IMG/VR virus record: IMGVR_UViG_3300030110_004301
Coordinates: 1-20,633 of that record
Direction: 5' to 3' (one strand)
DNA length: 20,633 nucleotides
Origin: a virus
Position numbers and translations under genes: made by a program. Under the pieces are notes generated by a model that made no database searches, had not been told where the DNA came from, and saw only the letters and a program-made list of their open reading frames with translations. Position 1 is the stretch's first letter; every line of letters begins with the position of its first letter. Positions 89-6,047 of this stretch are shown here, piece after piece.

Positions 89-126
89 TTGACAGTCCCA
101 CATAATTATATATAGTGTCCCACATA
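89..126 (+). promoter_or_regulatory. Promoter P1 with duplicated GTCCCACATA operator-like repeat
   Basis: TTGACA (89-94) and TATAGT (111-116) are separated by 16 bp. The 10-mer GTCCCACATA occurs twice, at 95-104 in the spacer and at 117-126 just past the -10 box, 22 bp (about two helical turns) apart. It is preceded by GGGG, as are P4 and P5. Transcription would start near 123 and read the four-gene operon 336-1303. The placement of the repeats suggests an operator; that role is inferred. Confidence 0.7.
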
Positions 127-335
127 TTCGGTGATAGAATCTAATTAATTTTATCGGCTGACTGAACAACTCTTTAACAGAGGGGTAAAGTACATCTGAG
201 ATGAAGCATGGCCAAATGGCTGAGGTAATCAAGGGTGGTTGTGAGTAGACATATATGAAATGTGTATCTGTAGTCGAAAGCTTGTGGGTGAGAAACTAAT
301 CCCACGCCTATACCGAATATCCGAGAAAGGATATC
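127..335 (+). other. Long structured 5' leader of the first operon
   Basis: About 210 nt separate P1 from the first start codon. Hairpins visible by eye are AGACATATA/TGTGTATCT (about 247-269, one mismatch, loop TGAAA), GTGGG/CCCAC (284-288 with 301-305) and ATATCC/GGATAT (317-322 with 329-334). The last hairpin contains the GAAAGG ribosome-binding sequence in its loop and 3' arm, immediately before the ATG at 336. A 15-codon open frame (ATG 201, TAG 246-248) lies inside the leader. I could match it to no known riboswitch or tRNA. Confidence 0.4.
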
Positions 336-647
336 ATGACTAGATTAAAACCAGAATACGAGTCTGTATTTAAAGAGGGCTTTCGTTTAGGTCTTAGATT
401 AACTAGGGCTAAATTAAATTATGAAAGAGCTCGTGAATGTAGAGAACTTGGTGATATTTTTATGACTGATTTTTACGAGACCAATGCTAGAAGATGGCAG
501 GAACTTGCTGAAAACTCAGGTCGTAGTTTTACACCGACCACGGCTCACGAACCAAATCAATTAAAGTTAGATTTAGGAGACACGGAGCTTTTAGAAAACA
601 TAGAAAAAGAATGGGAAGAAGATTCCTATGAAAGGAAAAAAGCATGA
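336..647 (+). CDS. Hypothetical protein, 103 aa, first gene of operon
   Basis: I do not recognise the family. The protein is highly charged: the N-terminal half is rich in Arg/Lys and aromatic residues (for example FRLGLRLTRAKLNYERARE) and looks alpha-helical. The C-terminal third (from about residue 75) is acidic with a short basic end. There is no signal peptide or membrane segment. The start is set by GAAAGG at 325-330. The TGA overlaps the ATG of the next gene (ATGA at 644-647), so it is likely translationally coupled to the RHH gene. Its place in front of a DNA-binding protein would fit an early regulatory or host-takeover role, but the sequence does not show a function. Confidence 0.8.
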   Translation: MTRLKPEYESVFKEGFRLGLRLTRAKLNYERARECRELGDIFMTDFYETNARRWQELAENSGRSFTPTTAHEPNQLKLDLGDTELLENIEKEWEEDSYERKKA

Positions 648-799
648 ACACACAAAAGTTCAAATCAGTAGCTGTAAAGATAGATACTTATCAAAAATTA
701 AAAGTACAAGCAGATCATAACAATCGATCGGTAGGTGGACAAATTACTGAACTAGTAGAAAAAGAAGATAAAAAATCTAAAAGAAGGAAGGTTGCATGA
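644..799 (+). CDS. Small ribbon-helix-helix (Arc/CopG-like) DNA-binding protein, 51 aa
   Basis: The start is the ATG at 644-646, overlapping the upstream stop (ATGA). The stop at 797-799 overlaps the next ATG in the same way. The protein begins MNTQKFKSVAVKIDTYQKLK and continues with a second amphipathic helix through GGQITELVEKE, ending in a Lys/Arg-rich tail. This order is the ribbon-helix-helix plan: a short basic strand (about residues 5-13, KFKSVAVKI) that would enter the DNA major groove as a dimer, helix A (about 14-25), a turn with N26-N27-R28-S29, and helix B (about 30-41). Members of this fold (Arc, CopG, MetJ) usually repress short repeated operators. It lies in the operon read from P1, whose operator-like repeats make autoregulation plausible. 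The fold is judged from pattern alone; the DNA target is inferred. Confidence 0.72.
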   Translation: MNTQKFKSVAVKIDTYQKLKVQADHNNRSVGGQITELVEKEDKKSKRRKVA

Positions 800-1098
800 G
801 CATAGCCAAGATTAGTTGGTCTTTTGATGCTGAAACAGAGATGATGACTATCTTAAAAGTAGACGGCATAGCTTTTCCTACAGTGACACAAGAAAAGAAA
901 ACAAATAAAATAGTTCCATTGAGAAGTAATTCAAAAGCTTTTTATACCCACTTGATGAAGTATCGACCAGGTACAACCATGACTTTAGATCAATTTTGTA
1001 ATAACAAAGATTATTATGGTGTTATGTATACAATTGTAGATTTAAATGGTGTTGAGGGTGTAGATCTTCAAAATACAAGATTAACGATCAATGTATAA
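796..1098 (+). CDS. Hypothetical protein, 100 aa
   Basis: I do not recognise the family. It looks like a small soluble alpha/beta protein with alternating hydrophobic stretches (ISWSF, MMTILKVDGIAF, VMYTIVDLNGV) and no cysteine motif, signal peptide or membrane helix. The start overlaps the stop of the RHH gene (ATGA at 796-799), and its own last codons overlap the next gene by 8 nt. The upstream sequence GAAGGAAGG (782-790) is a good ribosome-binding site. Co-translation with the RHH gene suggests a linked role, but no function can be assigned. Confidence 0.78.
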   Translation: MSIAKISWSFDAETEMMTILKVDGIAFPTVTQEKKTNKIVPLRSNSKAFYTHLMKYRPGTTMTLDQFCNNKDYYGVMYTIVDLNGVEGVDLQNTRLTINV

Positions 1099-1303
1099 CA
1101 AAGTTGTATGCCCTTCTTGTAGGGGTAACGGTTATATTCGTACTTCATGGGAAGCAGAAGATCATATAGATCAATGTAAAACATGTAGTTCAGAGGGTGA
1201 AATTAGTAAATTTAGGCTTAAAGCATTTGTTCGTCTTGAAAATATTAAGAGTAGAAGAGAGGAGCAGGACTGGGCTTTGGCCGCGGCCATGCCCGAAGAC
1301 TAA
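1091..1303 (+). CDS. Small double-CxxC zinc-finger-like protein, 70 aa
   Basis: Two cysteine pairs are visible: C7-x2-C10 followed by RGNGYI, and C29-x2-C32 followed by SSEGEI. The CxxCxGxG form of the first and the near-copy in the second recall one zinc module of the DnaJ cysteine-rich domain, so the protein probably binds one zinc ion. The second half (about 38-63) is basic and helical, and the last residues (ALAAAMPED) are coded by a GC-rich patch with GGCCGCGGCC. It starts inside the end of the previous gene and closes the first operon; promoter P2 follows within 3 bp. Zinc binding is inferred from spacing; the cellular role is unknown. Confidence 0.75.
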   Translation: MYNKVVCPSCRGNGYIRTSWEAEDHIDQCKTCSSEGEISKFRLKAFVRLENIKSRREEQDWALAAAMPED

Positions 1304-1305
1304 TA

Positions 1306-1334
1306 TTGCGTTTTTTCCCATTTTAGGCTATAAT
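1306..1334 (+). promoter_or_regulatory. Promoter P2 with TCCCATTTTA in spacer
   Basis: TTGCGT (1306-1311), a 17-bp spacer, then a perfect TATAAT (1329-1334). The spacer contains TCCCATTTTA (1316-1325), the reverse complement of the TAAAATGGGA found in P3 and P6. It begins right after the stop of the first operon and would start transcription near 1341 for the pair of genes at 1403-1784. Confidence 0.72.
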
Positions 1335-1353
1335 ATAGTCGTATTGTTAATAC

Positions 1354-1387
1354 AGTCCCTGTTAAGGAGTCTCTCCATACAGGGACT
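1354..1387 (+). promoter_or_regulatory. Two-tier hairpin in the P2 5' leader
   Basis: AGTCCCTGT (1354-1362) pairs perfectly with ACAGGGACT (1379-1387). Inside it GGAG (1366-1369) pairs with CTCC (1373-1376), leaving a TCT loop. Only four T residues follow (1387-1390), then the AAAGGAG ribosome-binding site (1391-1397) of the next gene. It may stabilise or gate the leader of the P2 transcript, or act as a weak terminator for the first operon. The short T-run argues against a strong terminator. Confidence 0.6.
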
Positions 1388-1402
1388 TTTAAAGGAGATT
1401 AA

Positions 1403-1627
1403 ATGGCCTATGACTACGAAGAGAAGTTAGCTCAACGTGATTTGTTGGACACCTTACTCGCTACAGAGACCACGGATCATGAGCACAAGGCATGTCTCGA
1501 ACTAATGGACACTCTATACTTTAGGAAAGATTTACCCGACAACGTTATATTGTTTCCATTCAATAAGGTGAGAAGGATAAATGTCCCAAATAGACCTACC
1601 AAACAGCCCCGTAAAAAACATAACTAG
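1403..1627 (+). CDS. Hypothetical protein, 74 aa
   Basis: I do not recognise the family. The first 50 residues are acidic and Leu-rich (YEEKLAQRDLLDTLL, KACLELMDTLYF), suggesting two amphipathic helices with a His-rich turn (TTDHEHKACLE). The last 25 residues are basic and end in RPTKQPRKKHN, a possible nucleic-acid-binding tail. The start is supported by AAAGGAG at 1391-1397, six bases upstream. The end overlaps the following gene by 47 nt in another frame, which is unusually long but does not weaken either ribosome-binding site. Confidence 0.72.
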   Translation: MAYDYEEKLAQRDLLDTLLATETTDHEHKACLELMDTLYFRKDLPDNVILFPFNKVRRINVPNRPTKQPRKKHN

Positions 1628-1784
1628 TTGCCCTAATTGTGGCGACGTTTCTGTTAAATTCTATAACCCCATTCACGACAAAAGATACTCAAGAGAAGAG
1701 TGGGACTGGATTATGACAGAAGGAGAAGAAGCATTAGGGAAGATTGTTAGACATATCATTGAAGACCCCAAACAATTTCCATAA
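1581..1784 (+). CDS. Hypothetical protein with one CxxC pair, 67 aa
   Basis: I do not recognise the family. A single C17-PN-C20-G motif is followed by aromatic and acidic residues (REEWDWIMTEGEEALGKIVRHII) that form a likely helix. A lone CxxC could bind zinc in a dimer or together with nearby His residues (H32). Ribosome-binding site AGAAGG (1571-1576) precedes the ATG. It overlaps the upstream gene by 47 nt and ends the P2 operon; a 230-bp non-coding interval with the GGTAACC repeats follows. Confidence 0.68.
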   Translation: MSQIDLPNSPVKNITSCPNCGDVSVKFYNPIHDKRYSREEWDWIMTEGEEALGKIVRHIIEDPKQFP

Positions 1785-1839
1785 AAGCAGTTCTCTATAG
1801 ATGTTTTCTGTCAGATAAAATAAAAAATATTTTACAAAA

Positions 1840-1960
1840 CTAGAGGTAACCTAGGTAACCAAGTAACTATTCAAGTATATCAACAATAGTAAGGTTACTT
1901 GAGTAATATTTAGAGGTAACCATAGGTAACCTCTAGTCATACCGATAACAGGTAATAAAA
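1840..1960 (+). repeat. GGTAACC repeat cluster upstream of the terminase small subunit (candidate packaging site)
   Basis: The palindrome GGTAACC occurs at 1845-1851, 1854-1860, 1915-1921 and 1925-1931. TAGAGGTAACC occurs at 1841-1851 and 1911-1921, exactly 70 bp apart, and TAGAGGT/ACCTCTA (1911-1917, 1929-1935) is an inverted repeat. Between the pairs, CAAGTAAC (1860-1867) and GTTACTTG (1894-1901) are inverted. Very AT-rich flanks with AAATATTTTA lie on both sides (about 1825-1834 and 1946-1956). In many phages the cos or pac site lies just before or inside the small terminase gene, so this may be the terminase recognition site; a replication origin or operator is also possible. The interval 1785-2014 holds no gene. 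Confidence 0.55.
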
Positions 1961-2014
1961 TATTTTATTTTTGTTGAGTTATGTGGTAAAAATCTATTAT
2001 TGTAAAGGCTATTT

Positions 2015-2542
2015 ATGAATGAAAGTAATTTAATAGTACCCGAACCGTTATCAGATACTTTGTATCATCCTAAGATAACAGGAAAGCAGAGAAAGTTCAT
2101 TTTACTTTTGGTGCATTCTGAAGGTTTAAAAACAGGTTCACAATGCGCAGTCGAGGCAGGTTACGCACCTGGTTCTGCTGTTGTAAGAGCTTCAGAGTTG
2201 CAAAATCCTGACAGATATCCAATAGTTGCAAAAGCAATAGAGCATGAACGTAGAGCTATTGTAGAGCGATATAAATGCACACAAGAAAGATCTTTAGCTA
2301 CATTGGCAAGAATAAGAGATAAAGCAAGTGAAGCTGGTAATTGGAATGCTGCCGTGGCTGCTGAAACTCGTAGAGGACAGATCGCAGGACTTTATGTTGA
2401 TAAAAAAGAGATACTTACAGGCACAATAGATTCTATGAATAGAGAGGAAGTGCAGGCAAAATTACAACAATTGAAAGAACAATATAGTATTGAGGTTGAG
2501 TATGAGGAGATAAAAGATTTGAAACAAATAGAAAAAAATTAG
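2015..2542 (+). CDS. terS: Terminase small subunit
   Basis: This is the DNA-recognition subunit of the phage packaging motor, which binds the cos/pac site and hands DNA to the large subunit. The N-terminal region shows the family signature: ITGKQRKFILLLV (about 21-33), then a helix-turn-helix-like stretch SQCAVEAGYAPGSAVVRASEL (about 42-62) and VAKAIEHERRA (about 71-81). The middle (about 90-125) is Ala/Arg-rich and helical, as in oligomerisation regions, and the C-terminus is acidic. Length (175 aa) suits the family. GTAAAGG at 2002-2008 supports the start, and a TTGAGT/TATTAT pair (1974-1979, 1995-2000) is a weak promoter candidate. It is about 3.5 kb from the large subunit, an unusual separation. 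Assignment rests on motif pattern. Confidence 0.85.
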   Translation: MNESNLIVPEPLSDTLYHPKITGKQRKFILLLVHSEGLKTGSQCAVEAGYAPGSAVVRASELQNPDRYPIVAKAIEHERRAIVERYKCTQERSLATLARIRDKASEAGNWNAAVAAETRRGQIAGLYVDKKEILTGTIDSMNREEVQAKLQQLKEQYSIEVEYEEIKDLKQIEKN

Positions 2543-2570
2543 TTGACATAAGATAAAATGGGAGTAAGAT
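2543..2570 (+). promoter_or_regulatory. Promoter P3 with TAAAATGGGAG in spacer
   Basis: TTGACA (2543-2548), a 16-bp spacer and TAAGAT (2565-2570). The 16-mer AGATAAAATGGGAGTA (2551-2566) is identical to 5469-5484 in P6. It begins at the stop of terS and would start transcription near 2577, so the ATG at 2558 cannot be used from this promoter and the downstream gene must start at 2600. Confidence 0.65.
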
Positions 2571-2599
2571 ATAGAAAGTTAAAAAAGAAAGGAAGAAGG

Positions 2600-2752
2600 A
2601 TGAAAAGATTTATATTAGATTTATTGTTTCCTACGAAGCAAAGAAAACTTAGTTTGGTATGGCATCATATCAATAATGTCGCAAGTAAGGGTATTATTGG
2701 TAGAAGTGCTACTGACAGAAAAAAAGTGATAAGGGGGCATGATGGCTACTAG
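2600..2752 (+). CDS. Small basic hypothetical protein, 50 aa
   Basis: I chose the ATG at 2600 because AGGAAGAAGG (2590-2599) is a ribosome-binding site and because the in-frame upstream ATG at 2558 lies inside promoter P3. The protein starts MKRFILDLLFPTKQRKL, with a short hydrophobic patch (residues 4-10), and is Lys/Arg/His-rich. There is no recognisable domain. The end overlaps the next gene by 11-14 nt. It is the first of four small genes (2600-3503) that share overlapping ends and so form one operon. No function can be assigned. Confidence 0.6.
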   Translation: MKRFILDLLFPTKQRKLSLVWHHINNVASKGIIGRSATDRKKVIRGHDGY

Positions 2753-2954
2753 TCTTGATGAACAAATTATTGCTTTGCGTGAACATCACCATCGCAGAAT
2801 TGCCTTACTAGAAAAGAAGGTTAGAACATTAATGGAATATAGAGCTACACCAGCAACAAAAAAAGAATTAAGAGATTATGTAGCTTGGTCTATAAATCAG
2901 AGAACTAAAGCAAGGAGAGGTAAAAAAAATGCAGAAACAGTCGATACCACTTGA
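2739..2954 (+). CDS. Small basic coiled-coil-like protein, 71 aa
   Basis: I do not recognise the family. Residues 5-35 (SLDEQIIALREHHHRRIALLEKKVR, then TLMEYR) have heptad-like spacing of Leu/Ile and look like one helix. The C-terminus is Arg/Lys-rich. Two consecutive ATG codons (2739, 2742) are possible; AAGGGGG (2731-2737) fits the second better by spacing. It overlaps the previous gene by 14 nt and the following membrane-protein gene by 26 nt, so all three are probably co-translated. No function can be assigned. Confidence 0.65.
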   Translation: MMATSLDEQIIALREHHHRRIALLEKKVRTLMEYRATPATKKELRDYVAWSINQRTKARRGKKNAETVDTT

Positions 2955-3093
2955 AGTTAAAACAAAAGACATCAGTCTTGATATAGGTCCAAAATGGTGG
3001 GAGATATTTCCCATAATAATTGTGTTTGGAGGTGTAAAAGCTTTTATACTAATAATTGCAATTGTGTATCTATTTAGGTGGTTTTTTAATTGA
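2929..3093 (+). CDS. Small membrane protein, 54 aa
   Basis: This open frame starts at ATG 2929-2931 behind GGAGAGG (2914-2920) and ends at TGA 3091-3093. The first 22 residues are polar (MQKQSIPLEVKTKDIS, then LDIG); residues 26-49 (IFPIIIVFGGVKAFILIIAI, then VYLF) form one long membrane helix or a tight hairpin broken at FGG, followed by RWFFN. There is no lipoprotein or cleavage signal. It overlaps genes on both sides, including a TTGA stop/start overlap with the nuclease gene, which supports it as real. The function is unknown; small phage membrane proteins of this size often act on the host envelope or in lysis, but nothing here shows that. Confidence 0.68.
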   Translation: MQKQSIPLEVKTKDISLDIGPKWWEIFPIIIVFGGVKAFILIIAIVYLFRWFFN

Positions 3094-3503
3094 AACCAGA
3101 GACTAAATTTTGGAGAGAAGTAAGAGAAAACTTGCCAGATATATTTTGGACTAGACATGAGAATTGGGCTACTCCAGGTGTACCCGACGTGTATGGAATT
3201 AAAGACGGAATATCGTTTTGGGTGGAATTGAAAGTAATAAAGAGTAATAAAATAAATTTGAGACCACACCAAATGATGTGGAACTATAAGCATAGTTTAT
3301 GCGGTGGAAGATCTTTTATTATGGCCAAGGCCCCCTCCCAGAGCTTACTGTATATCTTTGGAGGATCTTTGGCCCCCTCCATTGCGGACGAGGGAACCCG
3401 AACCACGCCTAAGTGGACGTTTGAGCTGGCCCAGCAGCCCTGGAAGAAGATTCAAAGAATCCTTCTCCATTCTGCATTGCCGAAGCCCCCAACCATCACG
3501 TAG
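3090..3503 (+). CDS. VRR-NUC family nuclease
   Basis: Proteins of this PD-(D/E)XK family are small structure-specific DNA endonucleases in phages, probably acting in recombination or repair of replicating DNA. Visible motifs are the N-terminal Glu/Arg region (KFWREV), then PGVPDVYG with the catalytic Asp (about residues 29-36), FWVELKV with the E-x-K pair (about 43-49), and the family's conserved PHQ...W segment (about 58-64). The start is TTG at 3090 behind AGGTGG (3076-3081), overlapping the upstream TGA (TTGA). After about residue 78 the base composition turns sharply GC-rich and the last 50 residues lack family features, so the native end may have been replaced by sequence from the adjacent GC-rich island. 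Confidence 0.8.
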   Translation: MKPETKFWREVRENLPDIFWTRHENWATPGVPDVYGIKDGISFWVELKVIKSNKINLRPHQMMWNYKHSLCGGRSFIMAKAPSQSLLYIFGGSLAPSIADEGTRTTPKWTFELAQQPWKKIQRILLHSALPKPPTIT

Positions 3504-3660
3504 CATGGGAGGTTTTAGGACGCTGCGCTGTCCCCGGATGGTCTTCTGGTGGACTCCATTGCATTGTCCATTGCCCGCTTTTTCAACCCTTTTGGGTCAT
3601 TAAGTCAGGAGCTGTCCACGCTGTCCCAGGCACAGCAGGTGGTTTCCATTGCATTGCACA
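3377..3660 (+). repeat. GC-rich interval with four spaced TCCATT(G)CATTG-type elements
   Basis: CTCCATTGCGGA (3377), CTCCATTCTGCATTGCC (3465), CTCCATTGCATTGTCC (3554) and TTCCATTGCATTGCAC (3644) occur at intervals of 88, 89 and 90 bp. The first two lie in the tail of the nuclease gene, the others in the non-coding 3504-3742 stretch. The sequence between them is not clearly repeated. In frame with the last two copies there is a fragment reading DSIALSIARFFNPFGSLSQE without a convincing start. I see no complete gene in 3504-3742; a gene remnant or a structured-RNA region are both possible. Confidence 0.45.
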
Positions 3661-3742
3661 GCAACCCGCACCCGTGTGTCCTTTAGGACTAAAGGAGCTG
3701 GGGGCTCAGGAGAAGACAGTGAAAAAAAAATTAATTTAGGGG

Positions 3743-3775
3743 TTGACATTCCCACTTTATCCCATTATATATAAT
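3743..3775 (+). promoter_or_regulatory. Promoter P4 with two TCCCA boxes
   Basis: TTGACA (3743-3748), a 17-bp spacer, then TATATA (3766-3771) overlapping a TATAAT (3770-3775). The spacer holds TCCCA twice, at 3750-3754 and 3760-3764, exactly 10 bp apart on the same face of the helix. It drives the genes at 3947-4413 and possibly the tRNA. Confidence 0.72.
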
Positions 3776-3779
3776 ACAT

Positions 3780-3946
3780 AGGCGAAAGTCCCTGAGCTAC
3801 GGCTCCGTGTTCAAGGTCTATGTGTGTGGTGCATAAAAAAAGTGGGTTTTCCACAATAGGGGAAAAATGCTTAAATCCATTCCTCTCCCAACGAGTTTAG
3901 CGTTTTGGGGATGAACAAAGCCACACACAAACAAAGGAGAAGAAAG
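3780..3946 (+). other. Long 5' leader with distant complementary segments
   Basis: About 165 nt of leader separate P4 from the ATG at 3947. TGTGTGTGG (3821-3829) is perfectly complementary to CCACACACA (3921-3929), which ends four bases before the AAAGGAG ribosome-binding site (3933-3939). Smaller hairpins are GAGC/GCTC (about 3794-3805) and GTGG/CCAC (3842-3845 with 3851-3854). The pairing could present or hide the ribosome-binding site; this is inference from sequence. Confidence 0.4.
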
Positions 3947-4279
3947 ATGAAAGAAAAGTCCATTGAAGATTGGGTGAGGAAAAATATTTCCCCATCAGAG
4001 AGAAAAGAAGTGCTGGAGCACGGATGTGTTAACGGGTGCGTGCCACAGCTTATATATTACAAGGACACCTGTGCCTTTTATGATTACTACCAGAACGAGA
4101 TCTGGGACATGCTGTATGATGCAGCAAACAATTATGGTTCCGAATCTATTCTACATTTCATTGCATCTCTTAACGGTGCGAAAGATGTGGGGTCAGATGA
4201 TCAGTTATCAAACCTGCTGGCCTGGTGGGCTGTTGAAGAAACATGCTACCAGTTGCAAGCAAAGGAGGACGCTGCCTGA
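3947..4279 (+). CDS. Conserved hypothetical phage protein, 110 aa (possible DUF7222-like)
   Basis: The start at ATG 3947 is chosen for the AAAGGAG at 3933-3939; in-frame upstream starts (3905 TTG, 3911 ATG) have no ribosome-binding site. The protein is acidic and aromatic-rich, with EHGCVNGCVPQLIYYKDTCA (about residues 24-43), YDYYQNEIWDMLYDAA, ILHFIASLNGAKDVG (about 68-82) and LAWWAVEETCYQL near the end. From memory this order resembles an uncharacterised phage family (DUF7222), which I cannot verify here. It has four cysteines, no membrane segment, and codons clearly more GC-rich than most neighbours. The TGA overlaps the ATG of the following membrane peptide (TGATG). Confidence 0.75.
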   Translation: MKEKSIEDWVRKNISPSERKEVLEHGCVNGCVPQLIYYKDTCAFYDYYQNEIWDMLYDAANNYGSESILHFIASLNGAKDVGSDDQLSNLLAWWAVEETCYQLQAKEDAA

Positions 4280-4413
4280 TGCATTGGCTGTGGATCCCGG
4301 CTTTGGTATATATGGTAGCGCTGTACTTGGCACCGGCTCAGGTTCTGGGTGGGACTCTTTTTGGTTTTGCCTGGTTGATGGACTCCATTGATTGGTCCGT
4401 TGTTCCATTCTAG
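4279..4413 (+). CDS. Small membrane peptide, 44 aa
   Basis: The ATG at 4279 overlaps the upstream stop (TGATG) and has the excellent ribosome-binding site AAAGGAGGA (4261-4269) nine bases away; the stop is TAG 4411-4413. The peptide begins MHWLWIPALVYMVALYLAPA and continues QVLGGTLFGFAWLMDS, so most of it is hydrophobic and could cross the membrane once or as a short hairpin, ending in the polar IDWSVVPF. It is coupled to the preceding 110-aa gene. I recognise no family. Confidence 0.7.
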   Translation: MHWLWIPALVYMVALYLAPAQVLGGTLFGFAWLMDSIDWSVVPF

Positions 4414-4490
4414 CTCCATCGCATTGTCCTTCCGACCCAGTGGCCCAGGTAAGCAGCAGGAGCTGCTGTGCTGGCCAGTCAGGTTTACTT

Positions 4491-4564
4491 CTGGTGGTGG
4501 CAGAGAGGTTATGTATCGTACTGCAACTACGACCACGCGAGTTCGAATCTCGCCCACCAGTCCA
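4491..4564 (+). tRNA. tRNA-Cys (anticodon GCA), CCA encoded
   Basis: The 7-bp acceptor stem CTGGTGG (4491-4497) / CCACCAG (4554-4560) is perfect, with discriminator T 4561 and an encoded CCA at 4562-4564. The D arm has a 3-bp stem and GGTTATGTA, as in bacterial tRNA-Cys. The anticodon stem is TCGTA (4516-4520) / TACGA (4528-4532), the loop CTGCAAC, the anticodon GCA (4523-4525). The variable loop is CCAC, and the T arm is GCGAG-TTCGAAT-CTCGC (4537-4553). T at position 73 plus GCA are known tRNA-Cys identity elements. No broken pairs are seen, so it is probably functional. Confidence 0.92.
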
Positions 4565-4640
4565 TTACATTGCATCGCGACGAATCCGCCTTTGTGCGAG
4601 TATAAGGGTAAGGAAGTCCCGCCACGCGGCGTGTCTAGGT
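4561..4640 (+). repeat. About 75-bp repeat unit, copy 1 (adjacent to tRNA-Cys)
   Basis: TCCATTACATTG begins exactly at the discriminator and CCA of the tRNA, and CGGCGTGTC follows 66 bp later (4627-4635). The same two blocks occur at similar spacing in the copy at 5203. The unit ends with the small hairpin CACG-CGG-CGTG. No gene is present from 4565 to 4764. Confidence 0.5.
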
Positions 4641-4697
4641 TTGTAAGTTGTGTGGTATGTCGAGTTTGGATTATCTAAAAAAAAATAAAAAAAGGGG

Positions 4698-4727
4698 TTG
4701 ACATATAAAAAAATGGGATTATATATA
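4698..4727 (+). promoter_or_regulatory. Promoter P5 with AAATGGGA in spacer
   Basis: GGGG-TTGACA (4698-4703), a 16-bp spacer and TATATA (4720-4725; an overlapping TATATA at 4722 gives 18 bp). AAATGGGA occupies 4711-4718. A transcription start near 4733 gives a short leader to the ATG at 4765. Confidence 0.68.
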
Positions 4728-4764
4728 TAGTAACTAACAGAAAGAACAGAAAGGAAATAACTAA

Positions 4765-5181
4765 ATGTCAAAACCTGTTAATATAATAGATGTTTTACAA
4801 AAAGCATATAATGGTAAAAAGATATCTGATAGAGATACTAAAGCTATTATAGACGCTTATGGTAGAGCGTTAACTATGAAAAAGATTTTGGAGGATTTTA
4901 TCAAAGTCAACCGAAACTTGGTCATAGAGATCGGCGAACAAGCCGAAACTAATCTTGTAGTTGGCAAAGACTACACTCTTAACATTACTGAAAAGCAGTC
5001 GGTTAAAATCGATAATGCTCTTGTTAGAGAGAAACTAGGGGAGTTGGAATATCATAACTGCAAAGTGCCAACATCATACAAGCAAATTCAATCTATGCCT
5101 TTATCTGATAAGGTCATTAAATCTTCGCGTAATGACATGTCAGTTGGAAGCATTGTTGATTTCAAATTAGCAACCGCTTAA
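4765..5181 (+). CDS. Hypothetical protein, 138 aa
   Basis: I do not recognise the family with confidence. The N-terminal 55 residues look helical (NIIDVLQKAYNGKKISDRDT, then KAIIDAYGRALTMKKILEDF); the middle has a strand-like stretch (VGKDYTLNITEKQSVKI). It then has ALVREKLGELEYHNCKVPTS (about residues 85-104), a pattern I associate with uncharacterised phage proteins carried near replication or early genes. There is no catalytic signature, signal peptide or membrane helix. AGAAAGGAA (4749-4757) supports the start. It is the only gene between P5 and the tandem repeat at 5203. Confidence 0.75.
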   Translation: MSKPVNIIDVLQKAYNGKKISDRDTKAIIDAYGRALTMKKILEDFIKVNRNLVIEIGEQAETNLVVGKDYTLNITEKQSVKIDNALVREKLGELEYHNCKVPTSYKQIQSMPLSDKVIKSSRNDMSVGSIVDFKLATA

Positions 5182-5202
5182 TTTATTCTTAGAGGCGACG
5201 AT

Positions 5203-5281
5203 CTCCATTACATTGTCGCCTCGACCAAGCCCATGAGATATAGTAATAGTAAAAAGTTAGCACCAGACGGCGTGTCGCTGA
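5203..5281 (+). repeat. About 75-bp repeat unit, copy 2
   Basis: CTCCATTACATTGT (5203-5216), then TCGACCAAG, ATATAGTA, a run of A and CGGCGTGTC (5268-5276). It is followed directly by copy 3 with an offset of 83 bp. AGGCGAC (5191-5197) and GTCGCCT (5215-5221) pair perfectly, putting the CCATTACATT core in the loop of a hairpin. Confidence 0.6.
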
Positions 5282-5285
5282 TAAT

Positions 5286-5357
5286 CTCCATTACATTGTG
5301 GTTTCGACCAAGTCGCAGGGTATATAGTATAGGAAAAAAGTGCCGACGCGCGTGGAG
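5286..5357 (+). repeat. About 75-bp repeat unit, copy 3
   Basis: CTCCATTACATTGT (5286-5299) is identical to copy 2, followed by TTTCGACCAAG, TATATAGTATAGG, an A-run and a degenerate CGCGCGTGG block. Copies 2 and 3 together fill most of the gap between the genes at 4765 and 5376. Confidence 0.6.
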
Positions 5358-5375
5358 TTGGTTGGGAGAAGTCGC

Positions 5376-5456
5376 ATGACGATAATTGATATAATATTAC
5401 AAGTCCTTGCGTGGGTAATTTTATTCACAAGTTTATTTTATCTTTTTTTTAAATAG
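5376..5456 (+). CDS. Very small membrane peptide, 26 aa
   Basis: ATG 5376-5378 follows GGGAGAA (5364-5370); the stop is TAG 5454-5456. The peptide, from MTIIDIILQVLAWVILF to a final YLFFK, is one uninterrupted hydrophobic helix with a Lys end, so it would insert once in the membrane. The ribosome-binding site and clean single-helix profile support translation; the very small size leaves doubt. Promoter P6 begins three bases after the stop. Confidence 0.5.
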   Translation: MTIIDIILQVLAWVILFTSLFYLFFK

Positions 5457-5459
5457 GTG

Positions 5460-5488
5460 TTGACTATGAGATAAAATGGGAGTATTCT
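5460..5488 (+). promoter_or_regulatory. Promoter P6 with TAAAATGGGAG in spacer
   Basis: TTGACT (5460-5465), a 17-bp spacer and TATTCT (5483-5488). It shares the exact 16-mer AGATAAAATGGGAGTA (5469-5484) with P3. It drives the single gene at 5520-5801, which ends at a strong terminator. Confidence 0.68.
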
Positions 5489-5827: not shown

Positions 5828-5863
5828 AACCCCCAGTATTTATGAGATGCTGGGGGTTTTTTT
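5828..5863 (+). terminator. Strong rho-independent terminator
   Basis: AACCCCCAG (5828-5836) pairs with CTGGGGGTT (5850-5858), a 9-bp GC-rich stem with a 13-nt loop and a run of seven T (5857-5863). It closes the gene at 5520 and separates the early-type small genes from the terminase/portal block. Confidence 0.9.
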
Positions 5864-6018: not shown

Positions 6019-6047
6019 TTGAGTTTTACACAAACATAACTTAAGAT
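6019..6047 (+). promoter_or_regulatory. Candidate promoter for the terminase/portal block
   Basis: TTGAGT (6019-6024), a 17-bp spacer and TAAGAT (6042-6047, the same -10 sequence as P3). It lacks the TCCCA motif of P1-P6. The predicted start (about 6054) would leave only about five bases before the ATG at 6059. Confidence 0.4.

Follow-up and report, generated by a model that had tools for sequence, protein, structure and literature searches.

The viral contig analyzed here, 20,633 nucleotides (20.6 kb) of IMG/VR record IMGVR_UViG_3300030110_004301 and referred to throughout as the window, contains six promoters (P1 to P6) that carry the short box TGGGA, or TCCCA in the reverse orientation, in the spacer between the -35 and -10 boxes. 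The box is locked in position in the promoters of related phages, is confined to the block of small genes preceding terL, and is linked to a gene of this block for a ribbon-helix-helix (RHH) protein of 51 amino acids (aa). The best explanation, held with moderate confidence, is that this protein is an autoregulated repressor of P1 to P6, which acts through an extended form of the box, RTGGGA (A or G ahead of the T), as operator and shuts off an early regulon.

The six promoters, proposed in a first-pass annotation made from the letters of the window, were all found where that annotation had placed them, on the plus strand. P1 (89..122), the promoter of the RHH operon, is composed of TTGACA (89-94) and TATAGT (111-116), with TCCCA at 96-100 and a second copy at 118-122 that had been overlooked. 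P2 (1306..1334) has a weak -35 box, TTGCGT (1306-1311), followed by TCCCA (1316-1320) and TATAAT (1329-1334); its sequence, TTGCGTTTTTTCCCATTTTARGCTATAAT, is kept in the related loci L117-L120, L122, and L123 and is missing from the related contig G004. P3 (2543..2570) contains TTGACA (2543-2548), TGGGA (2559-2563), and TAAGAT (2565-2570). In P4 (3743..3775), TTGACA (3743-3748) is followed by tandem TCCCA copies at 3750-3754 and 3760-3764, exactly 10 bp apart, and both copies are retained in the G004 counterpart, TTGACAATCCCACTATATCCCACTATATT. P5 (4698..4725; TTGACA 4698-4703, TGGGA 4714-4718, TATATA 4720-4725) belongs to the class in which TGGGA stands at offset 12 from TTGAC, and P6 (5460..5488; TTGACT 5460-5465, TGGGA 5477-5481, TATTCT 5483-5488), which precedes a 93-aa gene, belongs to the offset-13 class. 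The probability of the box in a random 17-mer is 0.021 for the window and 0.047 for its first 6 kb, which makes six of six very unlikely by chance, a post hoc figure, as the promoters had been picked after the box was seen. A one-mismatch scan of the window alone with AAAATGGGA gave 14 matches against 10.6 expected, which is not significant, and a generic sigma-70 scan found fewer promoters in the window (47) than in shuffled sequences (58.6) and is no evidence by itself. The window taken by itself is therefore suggestive, and relatives were needed to decide.

Relatives were collected by scanning IMG/VR with the window TerL protein, which gave 174 relatives, with 80 of the 174 loci retained; the box statistics refer to about 48 related contigs after removal of near-duplicates. 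Every TTGAC on both strands of these contigs was taken as an anchor, and 5-mers were ranked by their recurrence at a fixed distance downstream. TGGGA was the most position-locked 5-mer, with 24 distinct occurrences at offset 13 and seven at offset 12, where the background is 0.68 per offset (Poisson probabilities of about 1e-28 and 1e-5, respectively), and no comparable TGGGA peak followed the neighboring or altered anchors CTGAC, TTCAC, and ATGAC. The consensus derived from 80 distinct forward promoters is TTGAcTATaaaATAaaATGGGAnTAta, and the offset-13 class comprises 64 distinct sequences among the relatives. The -35 box, the box itself, and the -10 box are nearly invariant, while the remaining promoter letters vary. 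RTGGGA occurs at 2.26 per kb in noncoding DNA and at 0.58 per kb in coding DNA, a 3.9-fold difference overall and an 8-fold one in the window, so that the box is rarer inside genes than in spacers, and relatives that keep the promoters keep the box along with them. Neither of the two outcomes that the first-pass annotation had named as refuting was thus observed.

The geometry of the box is equally regular. It lies 1 bp upstream of the -10 box, where either TGGGA or TCCCA can fill the same place; the reversed box is found there (P4) or directly after the -35 box (P1, P4), and tandem TGGGA copies occupy those two places in L021 and L024. Tandem boxes 10 bp apart are thus known in both orientations (P4, G004, L021, L024), and a second copy sometimes lies 10 or about 21 bp from the first. 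The recurring offsets of 3, 12/13, and 24/25 are spaced by roughly one helical turn, and the spacing of the repeated boxes suggests that they are presented on one face of the helix. Recurrence and conservation of the box in both orientations support the phage regulon with a short site readable on either strand that had been proposed for the window. A separate arrangement was seen on the minus strand ahead of the terL relatives in L056, L058, L060, L063, and L068, where a palindromic TTGACTATGGGATA-ATCTTATGTAATGTCAAT looks as though two divergent promoters used one box.

In the four relatives G004, G007, G008, and G038, of which 40-76 kb each were searched, five boxed promoters apiece were found, all within the approximately 5-6 kb that precede terL and all directed toward terL; the sole other match was an isolated TTGAT pattern match in G007. 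The promoter of terL itself (6023..6047, plus strand) is without the box. It contains a conserved element, GTTTTACACAAACA (6023-6036), and the -10 box TAAGAT (6042-6047), and it is conserved in more than 30 relatives, being unboxed in all 32 of 32 near relatives. In these relatives the conserved element AGTTTTACACAAACA is followed after about five bases by TATGAT-ATAACTT (TATGAT-ATAACTTTT), the -35 box is degenerate, and the element is present in essentially one copy per genome, features by which this promoter looks like a late, activator-dependent one. The first-pass suggestion that the box separates early from late genes stands with regard to location, boxed promoters being restricted to the pre-terL block and the box being absent from the promoter of terL itself; the early timing of this block is something we infer.

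The box is probably read by the 51-aa protein, which is encoded by the second gene of the P1 operon (644..799, product 644-796, plus strand). A regulator had been postulated in the first-pass annotation, which had not seen this gene. The window protein matches the Arc-like repressor family phrog_3180 at E=0.0024 and its homolog in L071 at E=0.00026; RHH_5, FitA-like, and RHH_1 match family members at E values of 0.001-0.04, below the gathering score, and a profile search of the alignment against the PDB returned the RHH proteins HP0222, AvtR, and Arc among few matches, with weak E values. The AlphaFold2 model (pLDDT 82) has an extended N-terminus and helices at residues 13-25 and 30-50, which is the strand/helix/helix layout of about 45 residues that an RHH protein requires. 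Nearly all Foldseek matches of this model are RHH proteins, including Arc (TM score 0.81/0.85), CopG, PutA, AmrZ, and MatP, at E values above 0.1, as expected for 51 residues. Residues K7, S8, V9, and A10 of the predicted strand are invariant in 14 homologs, as would be expected of a DNA-contact strand. A tblastn search of annotated phages with the protein gave no match, and profile searches of six-frame open reading frames were required to find its relatives.

The association of protein and box was also examined from the protein side, with 80 loci fetched by way of the RHH protein. A boxed TTGAC promoter, carrying TCCCA at offset 3, at 24-25, or at both, was found in all 54 of the 54 loci that have at least 1,350 bp upstream (related loci, not 54 independent events), and in 0/54 either on the opposite strand or with the letter-reversed motif; 31 distinct P1 sequences were found among all RHH loci. 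The apparent absence of P1 from nine RHH loci was due to a search stretch that was too short, and a longer one revealed P1 in all except L195, whose contig ends too early. Among sub-lineages the P1 box shifts between offsets 3 and 24, about two helical turns, and is never lost, as would be expected of an operator under selection. The candidate regulator gene hence sits inside the regulon behind a boxed promoter of its own, and the same site is found in several promoters and conserved in relatives.

More distant evidence comes from the pelagiphages of the HTVC023P type. DNA matches of the window terL (64-68% identity) are restricted to HTVC027P, HTVC023P, 023Pt_psg01, and one further phage record, and the kinship is borne out by homologous terL and gene order and by terS, nuclease-like, and RHH genes in common; judged from these genes, the window phage is a member of a widespread group akin to phages of the ocean's commonest bacterium. 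Among 11 small pre-terL genes tested, only the RHH gene, terS, and the nuclease-like gene recur in each of the three distant complete phages. The RHH homologs are HTVC023P gp13, HTVC027P gp21, and one protein of 023Pt_psg01, detected by an iterated profile, gp13 and gp21 having been missed by the first plain search. The box is retained in 023Pt_psg01 and in HTVC023P, which has five boxed promoters, one of them ahead of the RHH operon gp11-gp13. Unlike these, HTVC027P (MN698241.1) has ATAGGA in place of the box, and its boxed genes are more scattered. In an unbiased count ATAGGA is the most enriched noncoding hexamer of that genome (10 against 0.54 expected), and ATAGGAT (six noncoding copies against 0.14 expected, e.g., at 415, 11605, 17367, 17692, 19248, and 19806), sometimes as an inverted pair, stands at the promoters of gp02, gp21 (the RHH gene), gp33, gp34, gp36, and gp38 and is nearly absent within genes. 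ATAGGA looks like a lineage-specific one-letter variant of ATGGGA, with reader and box drifting together, and some ATAGGAT copies overlap the -10 box and could carry a second meaning. In a published RNA-seq study of HTVC027P, an early-to-middle cluster set apart from the others consists of the two genes gp33 and gp34, and this phage encodes no RNA polymerase and has early genes of no known function (PMC12753301).

On the reading favored here, P1 to P6 would be host sigma-70 promoters that form a single phage regulon, with RTGGGA on either strand as operator. The RHH protein made from P1 would dimerize and insert its beta-ribbon, which contains the conserved K-S-V-A-V, in the major groove of the box. 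Given the two-fold symmetry of the dimer, the box would serve in either orientation, and adjacent dimers could occupy boxes spaced by one or two helical turns. A dimer placed 1 bp upstream of the -10 box would block RNA polymerase at P3, P5, and P6, while dimers would sit over the beginning of the spacer and over the start region at P1 and at both spacer positions at P4. Since bound protein would block the polymerase, the RHH protein would repress its own operon and, as it accumulates, shut off the pre-terL block, and the terL promoter, unboxed and with its own element, would escape. The sign of control is the weakest step of this mechanism.

Several observations weigh against this repressor model. 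The -10 box of offset-13 promoters ends in A in 74% and in T in 8% of cases, a possible sign of weak promoters in need of assistance, and the geometry ahead of the -10 box is tighter than repression alone requires. The box of P2 is out of helical register. The assignment of the RHH protein as reader rests on linkage, fold, and co-conservation, the family E values being below curated cut-offs, and terS and the 103-aa protein of the P1 operon show linkage too. As to the final A, P1 promoters of the same sub-lineage also end their -10 box in A, so that A may simply be what the host accepts.

A rival possibility is that the RHH protein is an activator, or an activator and a repressor at once. P1 would then be expressed first, protein bound in the spacer would aid P3 to P6 with their poor -10 boxes in a delayed-early manner, and the P1 boxes would serve negative feedback. 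The fixed placement of the box 1 bp ahead of the -10 box in dozens of promoters, the A in place of the final T, and the different positions of the boxes in P1 and in P3 to P6 are in its favor, and AmrZ, NikR, and the viral RHH protein AvtR are all able both to activate and to repress. However, the final T is missing from P1 as well in many relatives (TAAAGA, TATATA), so that a weak -10 box is not peculiar to P3 to P6, the window promoters P1 to P4 and P6 have ordinary -10 boxes, occupancy of the spacer beside the -10 box normally excludes polymerase, and most RHH proteins repress. Activation is considered unlikely. A doubtful but specific form of it is a switch whose sign is set by box position, in which the protein represses P1 through boxes at the -35 edge and the start site and activates the other promoters from the spacer beside a defective -10 box; if this were true, an RHH activator acting from the spacer would be the missing temporal regulator of HTVC023P-type phages.

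Whether the box could instead be read by a host protein was addressed by its distribution. The DNA pattern TTGACTATNNNATNNNATGGGANTA, with 18 fixed bases and no protein information, was searched for in the 2.9 million viral contigs of IMG/VR and gave at least 80 loci, of which 79 of 80 among the matches listed encode relatives of window proteins. The same pattern gave seven matches in 84,980 bacterial and archaeal genomes (257 Gb), about the number calculated by chance, and one true match among them, the single-cell contig CACGTA010000018.1 (L199) of the uncultured alphaproteobacterium AG-910-K03, carries RHH, terS, and other genes of the block; AG-910-K03 is likely an infected host cell of this phage group. 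The box might be read by a host transcription factor that couples the early genes of the phage to the physiology of its host, a role put forward for CtrA in other alphaproteobacterial phages, and phage promoters with host regulator sites are a precedent (PMC9437464). Such a reader is very unlikely here, since a pattern that retrieves a phage family from viral contigs and is near chance in bacteria and archaea, that one phage contig aside, argues against a host regulator, and the box letter differs between HTVC027P and HTVC023P, yet both infect HTCC1062.

A similarly small chance is given to the box being a part of the promoter, read by an altered polymerase or by a phage RNA polymerase or sigma factor, and no operator. 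The offset-13 class does show extended conservation, TTGACTATnnnATAnnATGGGAnTA, but both orientations and several positions of the box are found, its distance to the -35 box varies by 1 bp, and no sigma-70 region 4 was found by a search with working controls. A search for a T7-type single-subunit RNA polymerase gave no match, but control genomes were silent in the same search; HTVC027P is reported to have none. Least credible is that each box belongs to a copy of a mobile promoter cassette by which small gene modules are shuffled, with letters shared by descent and not for binding. Paralogous promoters within a genome do have more in common than the box, and the intervening genes vary, but only the box, the -35 box, and the -10 box are nearly invariant, the P1 box shifts by about two helical turns without being lost, and tandem and reversed boxes are not accounted for by copying one cassette.

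The repressor model has several counterparts among known systems. Arc of phage P22 is likewise a small phage RHH protein of about 50 aa with the same fold (TM score as given above), and the Arc operator, whose subsites are separated by about one turn, lies between the -35 and -10 boxes of the promoter that it controls. Arc differs in that its site is inverted and of the TAGA type and in that it works within the immunity region of a temperate phage, whereas five or six promoters with TGGGA in either orientation are concerned here and no integrase or lysogeny gene was seen within the window. Short boxes repeated in helical phase and bound by adjacent dimers are known for omega and MetJ, which with CopG are plasmid or bacterial RHH repressors; CopG was among the fold matches, and sequences and contexts differ. 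F55, SvtR, and AvtR of archaeal viruses are virus-encoded RHH regulators of several viral promoters, F55 acting on tandem repeats, and AvtR represses its own gene and has sites that are conserved across its genus (PMC5569661). They differ in that the promoters are archaeal and the sites are others, and AvtR is a two-domain monomer that also activates.

The P1 operon encodes, in order, the 103-aa protein (336..647, plus strand), the RHH protein, and proteins of 100 and 70 aa; the 103-aa protein is conserved, with 82 near homologs, and a homolog search found none among the distant relatives. P2 precedes two small genes, which terS follows; P3 precedes small genes of which one is nuclease-like, P4 a DUF7222 gene and a tRNA-Cys, P5 a 138-aa gene, and P6 its 93-aa gene, after which a strong terminator (5828-5858) is followed by terL and structural genes. 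The leader of the P2 transcript contains, before the first gene, a strong terminator-like hairpin, AGUCCCUG...CAGGGACUUUU (1354-1387; -20.3 kcal/mol, z -3.1). Directly ahead of terS, the near-palindrome GGTAACC occurs four times (1845-1931) in two pairs, with 9-10 bp within a pair, and may be the site of another regulator or a packaging site. An interspersed repeat, TCCATTGCATTG (also TCCATTACATTG), is present at 3555, 3645, 4415, 4561, 5204, and 5287 of the window and in four copies in G004, always on the sense strand and in noncoding parts of the pre-terL block, and is absent in more distant relatives. The phage tRNA-Cys (GCA; 4491-4564) lies between P4 and P5; HTVC022P, an unrelated pelagiphage, integrates at the host tRNA-Cys.

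RHH repressors that act on repeated short operators are a familiar type (Arc, CopG, F55, AvtR). The box and the regulon in HTVC023P-type phages appear to be new and are unusually well supported for a finding made from sequence only; the papers searched on these phages gave no report of the box, the regulon, or the regulator (subscription literature lay outside the search). HTVC023P-type phages have been described as widespread in the ocean, and the gene timing of HTVC027P, the one with a transcriptome, calls for an explanation, as this phage has no RNA polymerase of its own and its early genes are all of unassigned function. The present analysis yields a candidate regulator, a candidate binding site, the promoters that it would target, and, in HTVC027P, a natural specificity variant (ATAGGA for ATGGGA), which brings the question within reach of a test with a 51-aa protein and a probe of 35 bp. 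The box would also allow early modules to be spotted in unannotated marine viral contigs from the DNA pattern alone.

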